The notes beneath the pieces are model-generated. The model made no database searches, had not been told where the DNA came from, and saw nothing but the letters and a program-made list of their open reading frames with translations. Position numbers and translations under genes: made by a program. From Gilvimarinus sp. 2_MG-2023 (GTDB taxonomy: Bacteria > Pseudomonadota > Gammaproteobacteria > Pseudomonadales > Cellvibrionaceae), in contig NZ_JAUOQM010000048.1 in NCBI RefSeq assembly GCF_030547685.1, positions 472,998 to 536,997 on the forward strand: 64,000 nucleotides of DNA. Direction: 5' to 3'. The stretch's first letter is position 1; each line of letters starts with the position of its first letter. Of the stretch, positions 1,475-58,562 are shown one piece after another.

Positions 1475-1981
1475 TCAGCCGCTGTTGCCAAGTGCGTGCA
1501 TAACTGGCAGTGGATCCAACCAGGGACAAGGCGTCAGCTCGACTCTCGCTCTATAGCTCGACCAAATGTAATCGCGCGCGCTTTCTACCATTTCCGCCTT
1601 TACTGGGTTTAACTCCACATACCGGCAACACTGGAGCAGGTATGAATCCGTCTCAATTGGGCTTATTTTATAGCGACTCTCCCACAGTGAGCCGGTTCGC
1701 CCTTCCATTTTGTTGACAAATCGGGTTTGTCTGCCAGCCAAGCGATTCATCAACCCGCCAATATCTCCGGGGCGGTCATTGGCACCGACTATCAGGTGTA
1801 CATGGTTCGTCATCAAGCAATAGCTGTAGACTTGCAAACCAAAATAAGTCTTCCATTCCGCCAAGTTTTCCAAATAGTACTCATAGTCACGATCCTCAAC
1901 AAAGACCACCTGACGATTATGGCCCCGCTGCACAATATGGTGGGGCAACCCCGGCACTATCACCCGCGCCCGCCTTGGCAT
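1475..1981 (-). pseudogene. REP-associated tyrosine transposase (RAYT), C-terminally truncated
   Basis: A Y1 (IS200/RAYT-type) transposase domain of 168 residues. The metal-binding HxH motif is H60-V-H62 (MTNHVHLIV) and the catalytic tyrosine is Y121 in CCRYVELNPVKA. RAYTs mobilise or process REP palindromes by single-strand cleavage through this tyrosine. The start MPRRARVIVPG is typical of the family. The family usually runs past 200 residues; here the reading stops at LGNSG, just where the C-terminal part should begin, and is followed without a gap by Rhs-tail sequence. It is therefore probably broken at its 3' end, although the catalytic residues remain. Two further RAYT 5' ends lie at 225-291 and 2068-2118. 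Confidence 0.75.
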
Positions 1982-2118: not shown

Positions 2119-2172
2119 ATAAACCACTCCTTGACTTTATCTACAAAGCATAAACCTACCGCATAAAATTAG
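2116..2172 (-). repeat. RAYT leader repeat, copy B
   Basis: This is the partner of the repeat at 289-345: about 40 of 41 bases are identical across the best block. It lies between the end of the proximal immunity-like gene and RAYT copy B, in the same arrangement as copy A behind the distal immunity-like gene. Confidence 0.75.
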
Positions 2173-2699
2173 TAGAAAATAAACCTGTCACCTTTTTCTT
2201 TTGGCCGCCTTTCTCTGAAGGCATTTTTTTTATCTTTAAGAAAGGTCAAAACATCTAGCGCCCCCTCCAACTCCGAGTCATAATTGGAGACCAAATAATA
2301 ATTCTTATATTTATCATGTCGGTAAAATATCTTCATCCAGCCTAAATTTACATAATGAAAATAAATATTCTCCATAAATCGCATAGGAAAATTAACAATT
2401 AAATCAACCCTACCCAAATATAAACTTGGGGAAAAATATTTATTTTCACAGACATCATAATATATAAAGGTCTCACCTTCACAAAACGATACACTGCCCC
2501 TCAATGATTTGAAATATTCAGGCACATTTTCTTCAAAAAAGTCATGATCACTAATAAATCTAGAACCAACTTTCCTAACCTCTAAAACAAGATCTTCGTG
2601 CCTCATTATACATTCATCGTACACATCAAAATCCTTAGAATAGGATAGGCCGGAGACCAAAATCATCAAAAAAAACAAAATTATTTTCATTACAAACAT
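2169..2699 (-). CDS. Exported immunity-like protein, proximal paralogue
   Basis: About 176 residues with a signal peptide (MKIILFFLMILVSGLSYS) and a mature domain related to the protein at 382-870, including three matching cysteines and the F-Y-R-H-x-K-Y-K segment. It is probably periplasmic. ATG 2699 overlaps the TAA of the upstream Rhs tip (TAATG) and has GGGGGAG upstream, so tip and immunity gene are translationally coupled. The last residues (KEKGDRFIFY) are encoded by the RAYT-element terminal motif at 2171-2195, so the native 3' end was probably replaced when the element arrived; the paralogue ends soon after the matching point. Neutralisation of the upstream tip is the likely role. No known immunity family is recognised. 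Confidence 0.65.
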   Translation of the reverse strand: MFVMKIILFFLMILVSGLSYSKDFDVYDECIMRHEDLVLEVRKVGSRFISDHDFFEENVPEYFKSLRGSVSFCEGETFIYYDVCENKYFSPSLYLGRVDLIVNFPMRFMENIYFHYVNLGWMKIFYRHDKYKNYYLVSNYDSELEGALDVLTFLKDKKNAFRERRPKEKGDRFIFY

Positions 2700-3067
2700 T
2701 ACCCACTCCCCCACTTACTTATTGAAACACTTGGAATAAAAATACAAACAGGAGGACTTTCATATGGATTTCCACCAGCGACCTCATCAAGAAAAACATC
2801 TGATATTACGTCTTCCTCTCTTCTCCATATAGATACAATATCAGACTTACATTTTTCAATATCTTCTTCACAAACCAATTTCTCATATTTCTTTAATTCT
2901 TCTTTTGTTCTTTCTAAATTCTTTTTCTGCTTCTTTTCTTTATCCGCCATAAGTTCGTCAAACCATGCGTCACGATACGATCGCCCGTCCGAATGTCTTA
3001 AAGCACGACTTTTGAAAACACAATGAATATAAATAGAGACTTCAACTACAGTTACCCAAGCAGTCAA
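2699..3067 (-). pseudogene. Rhs C-terminal toxin tip, out of frame with its core
   Basis: About 122 residues, beginning at the Leu of the Rhs boundary motif (V-D-P-S-G-L). It has a hydrophobic start (TAWVTVVEVSIYIHCVF), a charged, probably coiled-coil middle (residues 40-75) and a C-terminal part with IWRREED and NPYESPPVC. In Rhs proteins the region after DPxGL is the variable toxic tip. The reading frame is displaced by one base from the core at 3064-3729; adding one T to the T5 run at 3112-3116 restores a continuous product through NVFSYGNG and WVDPSGL. No nuclease, deaminase or other toxin motif is recognised. The exported immunity partner suggests action in the periplasm or on the envelope. 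Confidence 0.6.
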
Positions 3068-3729
3068 ACCGCTCGGATCAACCCAAACAATAGGACTCCC
3101 GTTCCCATAAGAAAAACATTAACCCTACCACCCAACCCAATCGGGTCCCTCTGCAAATACCGCCCAATCCCCGAATCATAATCCCGAAAATAGTTATGAT
3201 GCAGCCCACTCTTCCCATCAAAATACTGCCCCGGAAACCACAAATTATTAGTCACATTTTCAGTAACAATCTCCACCTCACCAAACGCGCTATAACGCGC
3301 CTCCCACACCACTTCACCGCTGGCGTTAACCATCCGCTGCGGCGTACCCAAATAATCATTCTGATAGTAATACACCGGCCCATTTCGACGCTGAAACAAC
3401 GGTTCGGTCATCCAGGTGCTGTAAGGCGTAAACTGGTACTCGGCAATAAGATTACCCTGTCCATCATACTCAGCCGCCAGACCTTCATCGTTATACAGGT
3501 ACCAAGTAGTCTGGCCGTTAACAGTTTTCTTGATGCGCTGGCCTAACGGGTTGTAATCGTATTCACCCACGATAGCGCCGTTCTTTTTAACGGCAATTAA
3601 CCGCTCCTCATGGTTGTAAATATATTCTGTGGTTTCACTACCGGTTGTTTTGGTGACGGTGTGGCCATTGGTTTTATAGGTGAAAGTGGTTCTCACACTG
3701 TTTATGTTTGGCTCACCCAGTGACTGAGG
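3064..3729 (-). pseudogene. C-terminal fragment of an Rhs/YD-repeat core
   Basis: About 220 codons of YD-repeat protein (YNPLGQRIKKTVNG, WYLYNDEGLAAEYDGQG) followed by the conserved Rhs core end (YYYQNDYLGTPQRM, then RYLQRDPIGLGG). Full Rhs proteins exceed 1000 residues and form a shell that encapsulates the tip. Here everything upstream of about 3729 is missing, where the open frame meets a TAG. A one-base deletion in a T run at 3112-3116 also separates core from tip. It cannot be a working effector as it stands, but fragments of this kind can recombine with a full-length rhs elsewhere in the genome. Confidence 0.8.
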
Positions 3730-4369: not shown

Positions 4370-5785
4370 ATGCCAAATACTCAATTACCCTATCAACACG
4401 CCCACCAAGAAAACGGGCAGTACGACACCATAGACGCTATAGTCTCTCCCCAAAACCAACTCAATATACTCTCTAAAACCGAGGCCTCTCGTTTATTGGA
4501 CGCCAGCCAGGGCGGCCTGTACACGCTGTTTCGCAGCTGTGCCCTGGCTGTACTCAATAGTGGCAACACCCTGGATGACGGTAAAGAGTTGCTGGAGCGC
4601 TACCCCGACTTTGCCATTCGGGTCATTCAGGAAGAGCGCGGCATTAAGTTGGAAGTAAATGGGGCTCCCAGCAGCGCATTTGTTGATGGCAAAATGATTC
4701 ACGGTATCAGTGAGCATTTGTTTGCCGTATTGCGCGATGTGTTATTTGCCAGCGGCGAACAAAAGTTATTGTCTAGCGAGCAAACCAAGGCCCCTGCAGC
4801 GATTACCGACGCGGTGTTTCATATGCTGCGCAATGCCAAAATCATCCGCCCCAAGGTCGACCCCAATATTGTGGTGTGCTGGGGCGGCCACTCGATCAGC
4901 GTGGGTGAGTACGACTACACCAAAAAAGTGGGCTATGAAATGGGCCTGCGCGGCTTGGATATTTGCACAGGCTGTGGCCCGGGCGCCATGAAAGGCCCCA
5001 TGAAAGGTGCCACCATCGGCCACGCCAAACAGCGCCTGGGGGTTGGCCGCTATATCGGCATTACCGAACCGGGCATTATCGCCGCCGAAGCGCCCAATCC
5101 CATCGTCAACGAATTGGTGATTATGCCGGATATTGAAAAACGCCTGGAGGCGTTTGTGCGCAGTGGCCACGGCATTGTGGTATTCCCCGGTGGCGCCGGT
5201 ACGGCCGAGGAGATTCTCTACCTATTGGGCATTTTACTGCACCCAGACAACCAGCAACTGCCCTTCCCCCTAATATTTACCGGGCCCGAATCGGCCCGCA
5301 GCTACTTCGAACAAATCGACAATTTTATTGGCCTGACTCTAGGGGCTGAGGCGCAAAGCCGCTACACCATGATTATCGACGATCCGGCTGCGGTAGCACG
5401 CCATATGGTTGAGGGGATGGGCGAGGTTCGGGCATTCCGTAAAGACACCGACGATGCTTATTACTTTAACTGGCAGCTAAAAATTGCACCGAATTTTCAA
5501 CTGCCGTTCGAACCCAGTCACGAGAATATGCGCAACCTCACCTTGCAGCCACAACTCCCTAAACACGAGCTGGCCGCGAACTTGCGCCGCGCCTTCTCGG
5601 GCATTGTCGCCGGTAATGTAAAAGATGCCGGCATTCGCGCTATTGAGGAACACGGCTTATTTGAGATCTGTGGTGACGCTTCCATAATGGGCCCTGTAGA
5701 TGAGTTGCTGGATGCTTTCCAGCAGCAAGGGCGAATGAAGTTGCCGGGCAGTAATTACGTCCCCTGCTATCAAATCATTCGATGA
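4370..5785 (+). CDS. ppnN: Pyrimidine/purine nucleotide 5'-monophosphate nucleosidase
   Basis: A 471-residue protein of the PpnN (YgdH) type, a cytoplasmic enzyme that hydrolyses nucleoside 5'-monophosphates to base and ribose 5-phosphate; in E. coli it is controlled by (p)ppGpp. The N-terminal third matches the PpnN-specific domain (GGLYTLFRSCALAVLNSGN). The central LOG-type Rossmann domain carries the signature PGGAGTAEE (about residues 274-282), the conserved phosphate/ribose-binding loop and acid pair of the family. Length is close to the E. coli enzyme (454). GAGG precedes ATG 4370. It is transcribed alone, facing the minus-strand tol genes, with the small RNA gene between. Confidence 0.93.
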   Translation: MPNTQLPYQHAHQENGQYDTIDAIVSPQNQLNILSKTEASRLLDASQGGLYTLFRSCALAVLNSGNTLDDGKELLERYPDFAIRVIQEERGIKLEVNGAPSSAFVDGKMIHGISEHLFAVLRDVLFASGEQKLLSSEQTKAPAAITDAVFHMLRNAKIIRPKVDPNIVVCWGGHSISVGEYDYTKKVGYEMGLRGLDICTGCGPGAMKGPMKGATIGHAKQRLGVGRYIGITEPGIIAAEAPNPIVNELVIMPDIEKRLEAFVRSGHGIVVFPGGAGTAEEILYLLGILLHPDNQQLPFPLIFTGPESARSYFEQIDNFIGLTLGAEAQSRYTMIIDDPAAVARHMVEGMGEVRAFRKDTDDAYYFNWQLKIAPNFQLPFEPSHENMRNLTLQPQLPKHELAANLRRAFSGIVAGNVKDAGIRAIEEHGLFEICGDASIMGPVDELLDAFQQQGRMKLPGSNYVPCYQIIR

Positions 5786-5803
5786 TGGCATCAAAATCCA
5801 CTT

Positions 5804-5821
5804 TGTAGGAGATGTCTCACA
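5804..5821 (+). promoter_or_regulatory. GacA/UvrY-type upstream activating sequence
   Basis: TGTAGGAGATGTCTCACA matches the published Gac box pattern TGTAAG-N6-CTTACA at 10 of 12 defined positions. Its centre lies about 65 bases upstream of the likely start of the GGA-rich RNA (about 5880), the spacing expected for rsmY-like genes. A GacA-type regulator gene is present at 57912-58562. Confidence 0.65.
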
Positions 5822-5879
5822 AAAAGTAACGTCATACACCACTGTTCGTCGTCACGAGGTTTGGCGATACTGTTTAACA

Positions 5880-6174
5880 CAGGGACGTTACACGGATGAC
5901 CAAGGGGCCAGGAAGGTTCACAGGATGTTAGCTACGGACTAGCCAGGGAAAATAAAATTTAATAGGGAACGACAACGGATTTGTCTTATCGAGCAAACCA
6001 ACACCCAAGTGTAGGAATCTCGAATAAACCACCGCGACAGGGGTTTAAATAATTTTTAGGCAGGATGCCAAGCCGCAGGAAGCGGACTTATAGGGAGAAA
6101 CGGCCAAGGATGCCGACACGAACAAGGATTGGATATCGTTCACCAAAAGGTCCACTTTAGTGGGCCTTTTTTTT
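5880..6174 (+). ncRNA. CsrB/RsmZ-family small RNA that sequesters CsrA/RsmA (candidate)
   Basis: I count 16 GGA motifs between 5882 and 6132, far more than chance. Several sit in loops of short hairpins, as in Csr/Rsm RNAs: GCTA-CGGAC-TAGC (5931-5943), GGC-AGGAT-GCC (6059-6069), CCGC-AGGAA-GCGG (6073-6085) and CGGC-CAAGGAT-GCCG (6101-6115). The run ends in an intrinsic terminator at 6145-6174. A -10-like GATACT lies at about 5866-5871, and a Gac box lies further upstream. No protein frame fits the stretch. In known systems such RNAs titrate the translational repressor CsrA (RsmA). The start position is approximate. Confidence 0.82.
6145..6174 (+). terminator. Intrinsic terminator of the GGA-rich RNA
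   Basis: Arms 6145-6155 and 6160-6170 form an 11-bp stem with one G-U pair around the loop TTTA, followed by an uninterrupted T run to 6174. Confidence 0.9.
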
Positions 6175-6288
6175 CGCCCCACTTTTAACCACGGCCTCGA
6201 CACACCCAAGTAAAACCATGTAAATGCTTAAAATGCCACTACCCACCACACTGACACCACTTTCGCCTCTCATAGTGAACGCCCATAA

Positions 6289-6314
6289 AAAAACCAGCTC
6301 GAAAGCTGGTTTTT
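6289..6314 (-). terminator. Terminator after cpoB
   Basis: AAAAACCAGCT, loop CGAA, AGCTGGTTTTT: a perfect 11-bp stem. On the minus strand it is followed by a U run, 20-odd bases after the cpoB stop, closing the tol-pal operon. Confidence 0.9.
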
Positions 6315-6335
6315 AACGATCTAAAACGCTAATGC

Positions 6336-7172
6336 TCAGAAGTTGTCTTGCAAATACCGCTGAGCCAGACGCGATGCATCCGCATTGCTGGCTGCGACAA
6401 TATTTAAAAGTTCTTCTGCGCGGGCGCTATCGCCCTGCAAGTGGTAGACCTTACCAAGCTTAAACTGTGCGTCAGACACTTTACGACTATCGGGAAATTC
6501 AGCCAGTAAATCGCCAAACCAACGCTGCGCCTCGGGCAGGTTATTCTTTAACAGGTAGATTTCACCCAGCCAATAATAGCTATTACTGGCGTATTCACCG
6601 CGTGGATACGCTTGCAAGTGACCTTTAAAAGCCTCAATAGAAGCGTCTATTTGCCGCTGCTTAAGTAAATCGTAAGCCGCGCCATAGACATCCGCTTCGT
6701 TGGCATCAGAGACTGTAGGGGTCTGTGAGAGCGCCGAAGGCGCCGTCACGGGCATGCTGAGCGGTGCTTTCCCGAGCTCAGACTGGCCGTTTGCTTGTGT
6801 AGATTCACCCGATGTGTTTGTCATTGGATTAGCAGTCACTGCAGATGCACCACCGGTTGAACCACCTGTGGTTAACGCACTGATGCGCTGATCCAAATTC
6901 AAATAATCATCCAACCGTTGTTGCTTGAGCCGTTTAATCTCAAACGATTGCTCCTCCACCATACCGCGCAGGTTCATAACCTCTTGCTGCAGGGTTTGTA
7001 GTTGGAAAAATAACTGTTCGGATTGCTCAGTCGCTTGCCCCGATGATACCGGTGCACCTCGAACGGGAGACGATACAGACTGCGGCGAAGAGTCAATCAC
7101 TTGCACCTGCGCCACAGCCGCTGTACTGACAGCGGCCGCGATTGCGGCCGCCAACAACAGGGTATTTTTCAT
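6336..7172 (-). CDS. cpoB: Cell division coordinator CpoB (YbgF), Tol-Pal system
   Basis: A 278-residue periplasmic protein. A signal peptide (MKNTLLLAAAIAAAVSTAAVA) is followed by a short coiled coil (about residues 50-95, QLQTLQQEVMNLRGMVEEQ), a Ser/Thr/Gly-rich linker, and three tetratricopeptide-like repeats (about 160-275, e.g. YWLGEIYLLKNNLPEA). In E. coli CpoB links Tol-Pal constriction of the outer membrane with peptidoglycan synthesis by PBP1B. It is the last gene of the tol-pal operon, starting 10 bases after pal, and is followed by a strong terminator. Confidence 0.93.
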   Translation of the reverse strand: MKNTLLLAAAIAAAVSTAAVAQVQVIDSSPQSVSSPVRGAPVSSGQATEQSEQLFFQLQTLQQEVMNLRGMVEEQSFEIKRLKQQRLDDYLNLDQRISALTTGGSTGGASAVTANPMTNTSGESTQANGQSELGKAPLSMPVTAPSALSQTPTVSDANEADVYGAAYDLLKQRQIDASIEAFKGHLQAYPRGEYASNSYYWLGEIYLLKNNLPEAQRWFGDLLAEFPDSRKVSDAQFKLGKVYHLQGDSARAEELLNIVAASNADASRLAQRYLQDNF

Positions 7173-56030: not shown

Positions 56031-57857
56031 CTAAACCGAGTGAAAGAAACCGTAGATTTCTTCAGCTAAAGTGCGGCTAATCCCTTTGGTTTTGGCCAAA
56101 TCAGTAATGCTCGCCTTTTGCAACTCCTGCAATCCGCCAAAGTGGCGCAGTAACTCCCGACGCTTGGCGGGCCCTACTCCGGGTATATCATCCAAAGTGG
56201 AACCCCGACGTTTTTTATCGCGGCGGTTTTTATGCCCGGTAATCGCAAAGCGGTGCGCTTCGTCGCGAATTTGCTGGATAATATGCAGTGCGGGTGAGTC
56301 GCTGCCGAGCACAATCTCCTGCCCTGTTTGGGCATTGTACAGTGTTTCGAAGCCGGGCTTGCGAGTGGTACCTTTCGCCACCCCCACCAATTGCACACCG
56401 CTTACCCCCAGCTCGCCCAATACGCGCTCTGCCACCCCCATTTGCCCTTTACCACCATCGATAAACAAAATGTCGGGTAGCTTGCCCTCACCTTTTTGCA
56501 AGCGAGTATAGCGGCGAGTGAGGGCTTGCTCCATGGCGGCGTAGTCATCACCGCCGGTAATGCCGTCTATATTAAAACGGCGGTAATCGGATTTTGCCGG
56601 GCCTTCCTTATCAAACACCACACAGGAGGCCACCGTAAGCTCACCACTGGAGTGGCTGATATCAAAGCACTCCATACGCGCTGGGATTTCATCCAGGCCC
56701 AGTACATCCTGTAACGCCAGCAGCCGCTCGGTCACGGTTTTACGGCTATTAATGCGAGCAATAATATTCTGCTCGGCCGCTTTTTGCGCCATATCCACCC
56801 ATTTAGCCCGATAGGAGCGCACCTTATGGGTAATCATCACTTTGGCCCCCCTGGCGGTTGCCAACGCTTGGCTCAGCAGTTCGGCGTCCTCCAACGGGGC
56901 GCTAGTTACCACCGCTGCGGGCACTTCGCGCCCTGCGCTTAAATAAAAGGGGGGCAGAAACTCACCCAGCACATCGGCATCTGTCTCGCCTAGCCCGAGC
57001 TTGGGGTAATAACTACGACTGCCCAGTATCCGCCCTTGGCGAATAAACAATACATGCACGCAGGCGTTACCACTTTTGAGCGCGACCGCCACAATATCCA
57101 TATCGCCGGTGCCTTCTTCGACACTTTGCTGAGCTTGTACGGTGCGCAATGCACTGATTTGATCGCGCAATTGAGCCGCCCGCTCGAAGGCTAATTGCTC
57201 CGAGGCCGCGTCCATTTCATTGGCCAGCTCTTGCAGTAATTGCTGGTTCTTGCCCTGCAAAAATAAGCGCGTATGGTGCACATCCTGAGCGTAATCCTGC
57301 GGGGTAATCAGATCCACGCAGGGACCGGTACAGCGATCAATTTGGTATTGCAGGCACGGGCGTGAGCGGTTGCGAAATACGCTGTCCTCGCACTGGCGTA
57401 CTTTAAAGGTTTTTTGCAGAAAACCGAGGCTATCGCGCACAGCGCTAACATTAGGGTAAGGCCCATAGTAATCGCCGGTTTTCTTTTTCGCACCGCGGTG
57501 CAGCGCAATCCTAGGATAGGGCTCGGCGGATGACATAAATACGTAGGGGTAGGACTTATCGTCGCGCAGTAAAATATTATACGGGGGGCGGTTCGACTTA
57601 ATTAAATTCTGCTCAAGTATCAACGCCTCACTTTCGCTGGTGGTGATGGTCACCTCAACCCGAGCAATGCGGGCCACCAGCGATTGTGTTTTTGGTGCCA
57701 GGCCTGTGGCTCTAAAGTAGCTCGCTAAACGCTTTTTTAAATTCTTCGCTTTGCCGACATAGAGAATGTCCCCCTCGGCATTAAACATTTGATATACGCC
57801 GGGGGCTTGGGTCTGATGAGACAGGAACTGTTTGGGGTCAAAATGAGCATCTACCAT
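56031..57857 (-). CDS. uvrC: Excinuclease ABC subunit C
   Basis: A 608-residue nucleotide-excision-repair nuclease: N-terminal GIY-YIG domain (GVYQMFNAEGDILYVGKAKNLKKRL), a UVR motif near 200-235, an RNase H-like endonuclease domain (CFDISHSSGELTVAS, ILFIDGGKGQ) and C-terminal helix-hairpin-helix repeats (LDDIPGVGPAKRREL). It cuts on both sides of lesions marked by UvrAB. A perfect TATAAT ends 6 bases before the ATG and no ribosome binding site is visible, so one transcript could be leaderless; cotranscription with gacA (54 bases upstream) is also likely. Confidence 0.96.
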   Translation of the reverse strand: MVDAHFDPKQFLSHQTQAPGVYQMFNAEGDILYVGKAKNLKKRLASYFRATGLAPKTQSLVARIARVEVTITTSESEALILEQNLIKSNRPPYNILLRDDKSYPYVFMSSAEPYPRIALHRGAKKKTGDYYGPYPNVSAVRDSLGFLQKTFKVRQCEDSVFRNRSRPCLQYQIDRCTGPCVDLITPQDYAQDVHHTRLFLQGKNQQLLQELANEMDAASEQLAFERAAQLRDQISALRTVQAQQSVEEGTGDMDIVAVALKSGNACVHVLFIRQGRILGSRSYYPKLGLGETDADVLGEFLPPFYLSAGREVPAAVVTSAPLEDAELLSQALATARGAKVMITHKVRSYRAKWVDMAQKAAEQNIIARINSRKTVTERLLALQDVLGLDEIPARMECFDISHSSGELTVASCVVFDKEGPAKSDYRRFNIDGITGGDDYAAMEQALTRRYTRLQKGEGKLPDILFIDGGKGQMGVAERVLGELGVSGVQLVGVAKGTTRKPGFETLYNAQTGQEIVLGSDSPALHIIQQIRDEAHRFAITGHKNRRDKKRRGSTLDDIPGVGPAKRRELLRHFGGLQELQKASITDLAKTKGISRTLAEEIYGFFHSV

Positions 57858-57911: not shown

Positions 57912-58562
57912 TTATACTACGGCCTCTGGATCTAAATAGTTGTGCTTGACTGCCAGAAGTGCCAACTCAACATCGGAGTTGATGCCCAGCTTTTCGAATA
58001 TTCGATAGCGATAACTGTTAACCGTTTTAGAGCTAACACAGAATATATTGGCGATATCCTGCGCTTTACGGCCGCCGGCGATTAGCATTGCAGTTTCCAG
58101 CTCACGTCGCGAGAGCAGTTCGAAGGGGCTGACATCGGCCTGACCAGAAATATTCTTTAAGGCAAGCTGCTGAGCAATGGCGCTGCTCATATATTGATTG
58201 CCACGTACCACTGTATCAATAGCGGTTGTGATATCGCCAAAGCCGGTACCTTTGGTGACATAGCCAACGGCGCCGGCTTGTAGTAATCGGGAAGGGTAGA
58301 GATCATCATCACAGGCCGTCACGGCGATGATTTTAACCCCGGGGTTCGCGGCCAGCATTTTTCGGGTCGCCTCTAAGCCCCCAATACCGGGCATTTTCAC
58401 ATCCATCAGTACAACATCTGGGGTGAGCTCCCGAGCCTTAGCAATGCCCTCCTCACCGCTTTTGGCCTGACCTACGACTTCATACCCATTAACGTCGTCT
58501 AGCATACGGACAATGCCCATACGCACTAGGTCATGATCATCTACGACCAGTATTTTCGTCAC
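57912..58562 (-). CDS. gacA: Response regulator GacA/UvrY
   Basis: A 216-residue NarL/FixJ-type regulator. The receiver domain has the acidic pair at 8-9, phosphoacceptor D54 (VLMDVKMPG) and K104 (GYVTKG); the LuxR-type HTH lies at about 145-210 ([42 protein letters not shown]). This sequence and the linkage to uvrC identify the GacA/UvrY/VarA group, which activates transcription of Csr/Rsm small RNAs. It starts at GTG 58562 with GGGGGAG six bases upstream. Its cognate sensor (GacS/BarA) is not in the window. A likely target RNA is at 5880-6174. Confidence 0.94.

Follow-up and report, generated by a model that had tools for sequence, protein, structure and literature searches.

A candidate CsrA-sequestering small RNA of the CsrB/RsmZ type behind ppnN in Gilvimarinus

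The DNA between positions 5804 and 6174 of the window, by which we mean the whole 64,000-nucleotide stretch that was analysed (G000:C5:472998-536997, from a genome of 3.76 Mb in 58 contigs), is very probably an independent gene for a small RNA that would sequester CsrA under the control of GacA. By kind the RNA is of the CsrB/RsmZ type and by score it lies outside the existing Rfam families; the type is already known, and this copy is unannotated and missed by the standard RNA-family models. An earlier, sequence-only reading of this DNA had proposed a CsrA-sequestering, GacA-driven RNA here. The proposal is supported by each sequence feature that could be tested, by the conservation of the unit across the genus and by the presence of genes for CsrA, GacA and GacS/BarA.

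The gene behind ppnN

The gap between ppnN and a cpoB/ybgF-like gene holds, in this order, a palindrome, a -10 element, a stretch rich in G and A that carries 16 GGA motifs, and lastly an intrinsic terminator. The features, with those of the regulatory genes in the window, are:

4370-5785, plus strand: ppnN, nucleotide 5'-monophosphate nucleosidase (NCBIfam NF038390, 741.7 bits, cut-off 450)
5804-5821: GacA/UvrY-type box, imperfect palindrome TGTAGGAGATGTCTCACA, aligned in eight Gilvimarinus genomes including G044
5866-5871, plus strand: -10 element GATACT, invariant in seven aligned genomes and GAAACT in G044
5879-6174, plus strand: candidate CsrB/RsmZ-type small RNA of about 296 nt with 16 GGA, predicted to start at 5878-5881
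5905-5928, plus strand: two candidate CsrA sites towards the 5' end, conserved as a pair, the hairpin gggccAGGAAggttc and then acaGGAtgt
5971-5985, plus strand: GGA hairpin gacaaCGGATttgtc, from the ensemble fold and the local hairpin search
6059-6069, plus strand: GGA hairpin ggcaGGAtgcc, helix 8, with one pair changed on both sides
6073-6085, plus strand: GGA hairpin ccgcAGGAAgcgg, from the ensemble fold and the local hairpin search
6101-6115, plus strand: GGA hairpin cggcCAAGGATgccg, a local hairpin with a probability of just 0.14 in the global fold
6145-6174, plus strand: intrinsic terminator, 11-pair stem (6145-6155 with 6160-6170) and U tract to 6174
6336-7172, minus strand: cpoB/ybgF-like gene on the other flank of the intergenic region, below both NCBIfam cut-offs
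56031-57857, minus strand: uvrC (TIGR00194)
57912-58562, minus strand: gacA/uvrY homologue, presumed activator, 47% identical over 215 aa to E. coli UvrY

The Gac box starts 18 bases past the stop codon of ppnN. A Gac-box-like palindrome had been placed about 65 bases before the likely start of the RNA, and the box centre does lie 66.5 nt before A5879; in all eight Gilvimarinus genomes the box centre and the presumed start are 65.5-66.5 nt apart. The weight of the box comes from this position and from its conservation and not from the loose pattern, which on its own is not significant (one site found in the window, 0.96 expected) and which we rejected as a genome-wide finder, there being 36 sites in the genome as against 33 with the pattern reversed. 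A recognisable -35 is absent upstream of the GATACT -10, and neither a sigma-70 scan nor a simple terminator scan listed anything at the 5804-6174 site. Since the simple scans are empty and the loose pattern does about as well as its reversed control, the case for box and promoter rests on conservation; judged by sequence only, a GacA/UvrY box stands upstream of a free-standing promoter, conserved and at a fixed spacing. A perfect TGTAAGN6CTTACA palindrome elsewhere in the genome (C5:286940-286957, L029) was rejected, as it sits in a terminator-like hairpin with a T run, without a GGA-rich RNA. This false box is intergenic, and the gene downstream of it looks by eye like comEA.

The terminator was also found where it had been claimed, as a stem and U tract at 6145-6174 with a folding energy of -14.7 kcal/mol, and seven pairs of its helix (helix 11) never vary among six aligned Gilvimarinus RNAs. 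The longest ATG open reading frame on the plus strand of 5786-6335 is 31 aa, so the region reads as non-coding, and the whole RNA folds better than its shuffles (z -2.71).

The count of 16 GGA motifs is exact for 5880-6174 (15 in the best 250-nt stretch), and seven of these are AGGA. The next-best 250-nt stretch on the plus strand of the window holds 8 GGA, and the best on the minus strand 12 (at 1353). Samples from a first-order model of the window's composition average 3.2 GGA, and none of 5000 reached 16. When the dinucleotides of the RNA itself are used instead, the average is 9.7 and 144 of 5000 samples reached 16, so the excess is partly built into the G/A-rich composition. At least four GGA hairpins had been described, and 8 of the 16 GGAs fall in an ungapped local hairpin of at least four pairs, with G-U allowed. 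In the Boltzmann ensemble three GGAs lie in a hairpin loop with a probability of at least 0.7 and a fourth with 0.33. The summed GGA loop probability is 3.19, compared with 0.97 +/- 0.65 in shuffles (0/40 as high), and in each of seven Gilvimarinus RNAs, this one and six congeners, the exposure exceeds that of 40/40 shuffles. That the global fold puts only 3 of the 16 GGAs confidently in hairpin loops counts against reading the RNA as a sponge. ANGGA occurs nine times in the RNA, and the pattern ACA(G/A)0-1GGA(T/C)GT is matched twice. In the conserved pair at 5905-5928 the hairpin shows compensatory changes in helix 3, and the acaGGAtgt resembles the SELEX consensus RUACARGGAUGU, in which, according to excerpts of the source, the GGA usually sits in a hairpin loop; the need for several GGAs is stated there too (PMC7652899).

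Conservation and wider kin

When 144 genomes of the family were searched at the plain DNA level, the unit turned up in six of the seven other Gilvimarinus genomes; the copy missed, in G044, was then recovered by the model R1 described below, and the unit lies behind ppnN in all eight. At the ppnN locus of Gilvimarinus xylanilyticus HB14 (NZ_JAMFTH010000001.1) the Gac box is identical to that of G048. Across the eight congeners the RNA is 245-431 nt long and carries 14-22 GGAs, which amounts to natural variation in sponge size. The G042 copy (L114, 1123-1553, minus strand) has 431 nt, 22 GGAs and repeated CACAGGATGTG-type hairpins; that of G046 is also longer, at 331 nt. Because these two longer RNAs fail to align past their 5' part they were left out of the covariation analysis, which covers six of the eight sequences. 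In it 11 of the 43 pairs of the consensus structure changed on both sides, compared with 4.7 +/- 1.5 in shuffles (0/500 as high) and 0-4 in slid controls, though the test favours its structure, as the sequences tested also served to derive it. Two further matches of the DNA search, in G128 and G009, were dropped from the count of homologues since only about 40 bases at the terminator end match and there is no Gac box within 400 nt; around the G128 match there are at most 6 GGA per 250 nt and around that of G009 at most 10, some 650 nt away.

It had also been predicted that the RNA might escape annotation. A cmscan of the window against the 4227 families of Rfam release 15 gave no match, and at 5804-6174 the cut-offs of RsmY, CsrB, CsrC and PrrB_RsmZ, the families suggested for comparison with Infernal, were all unreached. 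RsmY (RF00195) scores 29 bits here against a gathering cut-off of 57 and is over its cut-off in none of the 144 family genomes. Neither CsrB (RF00018, cut-off 71) nor PrrB_RsmZ (RF00166, cut-off 44) matches this genome at E 0.001, and each is over its cut-off in 0/144; the best congener for CsrB among the loci scanned reaches 34.6 bits (G042, L003). These family-wide searches used stricter filters and recovered CsrB in the E. coli control, and the 14 control genomes gave no match over the cut-off for RsmY or RsmZ. We rejected sub-threshold matches as evidence of RsmY membership: the RsmY match counts for little because RF00195 also matches two unrelated controls, Thermotoga and Lactococcus, at E 0.001 or better. 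It matches bare terminators of about 30 nt in several family genomes as well.

R1 is a model of sequence only, covering the box, the promoter and the first ~55 nt, built from seven Gilvimarinus copies. It matches all eight Gilvimarinus genomes with a best E of 2.7e-21 or lower, seven of these being its training set and only G044 independent. At E 0.01 it matches 109 of the 144 family genomes, 101 of the 136 outside the genus and 23 of 32 genera. A decoy made by reversing the alignment (R2) matches 0/144, a result that bounds only the rate of false positives because the decoy has no true target. At the 30 best R1 loci, which were taken from the top of the ranking, one per genome, rather than at random, there are 4.8 GGA per 100 nt in the 150 nt past the match (a few unmatched model columns fall inside these 150 nt where the match is partial) and 0.9 in the DNA upstream of the box, the former being higher in 30/30. 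For the 22 of these loci that are not from Gilvimarinus the figures are 4.5 and 0.8. With none of the 144 genomes over the cut-off of the three Rfam models and 109 matched by R1, a model anchored on the Gac box offers a practical route to annotation.

A search of 390 genomes of the order gave an R1 match at E 1 or lower in 98, many of them at chance level, and at 0.01 or lower in 38 by a hand count of the listing. One of the loci, L141, belongs to another family of the order (R1 E 0.0024) and is confirmed by Rfam as RsmY at 126.5 bits, so that R1, trained on Gilvimarinus alone, recovers a known member of the RsmY family. Of the 28 loci from this search outside Gilvimarinus (L115-L142), 25 have an in-register box with at most one mismatch of 8. 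L132, L135 and L142, with 2, 3 and 3 mismatches of 8, were regarded as chance matches. Scans of the same 28 loci at the Rfam gathering level returned the RsmY of L141 and nothing else. A Gac box and GGA-rich stretch also lie behind ppnN in three Cellvibrio-labelled loci (L034-L036) and in L125 (G016), L153 (G019) and L157 (G033). In other genera, for example at L123, L126 and L128, long stretches behind Gac boxes reach 16-19 GGA in 250 nt, and these three stretches have no Rfam match at the gathering level. Genomes of genus g9 (G019, G024), identified as Cellvibrio by comparing G019 with L036, have up to five R1 matches each.

A proposed CsrA sponge and its alternatives

The proteins that such an RNA would need are encoded in the same genome. 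CsrA has a single match, of 61 aa (PF02599, 86.9 bits). The gacA homologue has its best NCBIfam match to NF007018, UvrY/SirA/GacA, at 251.9 bits, under the cut-off of 280; in E. coli gacA/uvrY lies directly upstream of uvrC, and the window has the same order. A BarA/GacS homologue is a frame of 925 aa (C29:84179-86872) that is 35% identical over residues 4-907 of the 918 of BarA.

In the CsrB and RsmY/Z systems the RNA is switched on by a response regulator and titrates CsrA through its GGA motifs (excerpts of PMC7652899 and PMC2375449). We read the Gilvimarinus RNA as a GacA-activated CsrA sponge because this mechanism and the GGA features match. GacS/BarA would phosphorylate GacA, and GacA-P would bind the box at 5804-5821 and activate the promoter with its -10 at 5866-5871. 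The product would be an RNA of about 296 nt that ends at the terminator at 6145-6174, and its exposed GGA motifs would bind several CsrA dimers and so pull CsrA off its target mRNAs. Transcription, binding by and dependence on GacA, CsrA binding and the relief of CsrA repression are thus all things that we infer.

RsmY is close in layout. In L141 the RsmY match of Rfam begins 67.5 nt after the box centre, and in the window the equivalent base, A5881, comes 68.5 nt after it (hand count); the two share a GATAAT/GATACT -10, CACA(T/G)GGACG at the start, repeated GGA and an intrinsic terminator. The Pseudomonas-type RsmY, however, has 118 nt and 8 GGA, compared with ~296 nt and 16 GGA here; its GGA loop exposure (0/60 shuffles as high) is about as strong as that of the Gilvimarinus RNA. 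E. coli CsrB resembles it in being a long array of GGA hairpins, at 6.0 GGA per 100 nt as against 5.4 here, with BarA-UvrY-type regulators and a terminator, but exposes its GGAs more (10.1 expected of 22, 0/60 shuffles as high) and has different neighbours, lying between syd and yqcC. PrrB/RsmZ is alike in design and presumed function. CsrA-related sRNAs have been predicted in the marine gammaproteobacterium Alcanivorax dieselolei; going by excerpts of that paper their loci differ, CsrR1 coming from the hfq 5' UTR and CsrR2 lying near a ferredoxin gene (PMC9788540).

The position of the gene raises the question of whether it is mainly the 3' UTR of the ppnN mRNA, or a piece processed from it, that binds CsrA to control ppnN. 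In this genome the Gac box follows the ppnN stop after 18 bases, too few for a terminator, folding of the corresponding gaps in relatives gave weak short hairpins only (in four cases the script's first box-like site was not the true box), and the gene order is common to Gilvimarinus and Cellvibrio. Yet a conserved Gac box and -10 at a fixed spacing would then lie inside the supposed UTR, 20 of the 30 R1 loci have no ppnN upstream (though L152 has only 402 upstream bases) and a second Gac-box RNA sits behind motAB-like genes; we consider this explanation improbable. According to excerpts of a 2017 paper, regulators of RsmA that derive from 3' UTRs would, if validated, be the first of their kind (PMC5568370).

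It would seem still less probable that the RNA, although made under GacA, acts mostly by base pairing with mRNAs and carries its GGA motifs incidentally. Against this, GGA is placed in loops beyond the shuffles in 7/7 RNAs, while the length of the RNA (245-431 nt) and much of its sequence drift. The least credible explanation is that the intergenic DNA is G/A-rich, and contains a palindrome, by chance. The near-equal counts of the loose box pattern and its reverse in the genome (36 and 33) and the 144 of 5000 like-dinucleotide samples with as many GGAs would allow for it, but the whole unit is conserved in 8/8 Gilvimarinus genomes, with compensatory pairs, and the decoy control is empty.

Independent transcription of a CsrA sponge from the GacA-type promoter is therefore the reading that we prefer. 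Because no terminator fits before the Gac box, the ppnN mRNA may read through and provide a second source of the RNA that is independent of GacA. A wider possibility, which we put forward tentatively and think unlikely as a whole, is that long, fast-evolving sponges linked to ppnN, with the present RNA as type member and invisible to current RNA-family models, act as the chief antagonist of CsrA in Gilvimarinus and Cellvibrio, to which read-through from ppnN adds a GacA-independent 3' UTR sponge. If so, read-through would couple CsrA activity both to GacA and to the expression of a gene of nucleotide metabolism.

Polysaccharide degraders are found among Gilvimarinus and its relatives. CsrA sponges set the lifestyle switch in many gammaproteobacteria (excerpts of PMC7652899), and among the literature matches listed, as far as their excerpts go, there is no description of the RNA side of the Gac/Csr system in Gilvimarinus or its relatives. 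The excerpted text on the Teredinibacter genome reports orthologues of GacS, GacA and CsrA; small RNAs under GacA control are mentioned there in general terms only (PMC2699552). Searches of the open-licence literature found nothing linking CsrA with Gilvimarinus and, judged by the listing, nothing related for RsmY and RsmZ with Cellvibrio; for GacA/CsrA with Cellvibrio, and for Saccharophagus with CsrA or small RNA, no such RNA was among the matches listed. A paper of 2006 reportedly predicted CsrA-regulating sRNAs, and an earlier prediction of such an RNA in a relative may exist.

Other Gac-box and GGA-rich sequences in the genome

The second Gac-box RNA of this genome (L028:2001-2195; G000:C32:38265-38459) is about 125 nt long, with 5 GGAs and a strong terminator, and lies behind the motAB-like genes (named by eye); R1 matches it at E 2.9e-4. 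Its fold does not expose GGA beyond shuffles (8/60 as high). A second R1 match is present in 7/8 Gilvimarinus genomes, and the L028 RNA may act as an RsmY/Z-like partner to the RNA behind ppnN.

Within the window there is a second GGA-dense stretch on the minus strand, at 1353-1602, with 12 GGA in 250 nt. It covers the 3' end of a small open reading frame that looks transposase-like (1475-1981, minus strand; named by eye) and continues past it. Two small frames that look similar to one another, 382-879 and 2169-2714 (both minus strand), flank the transposase-like frame, and an RHS-like fragment (3064-3696) lies beside them; judged by eye, this suggests a duplicated gene.
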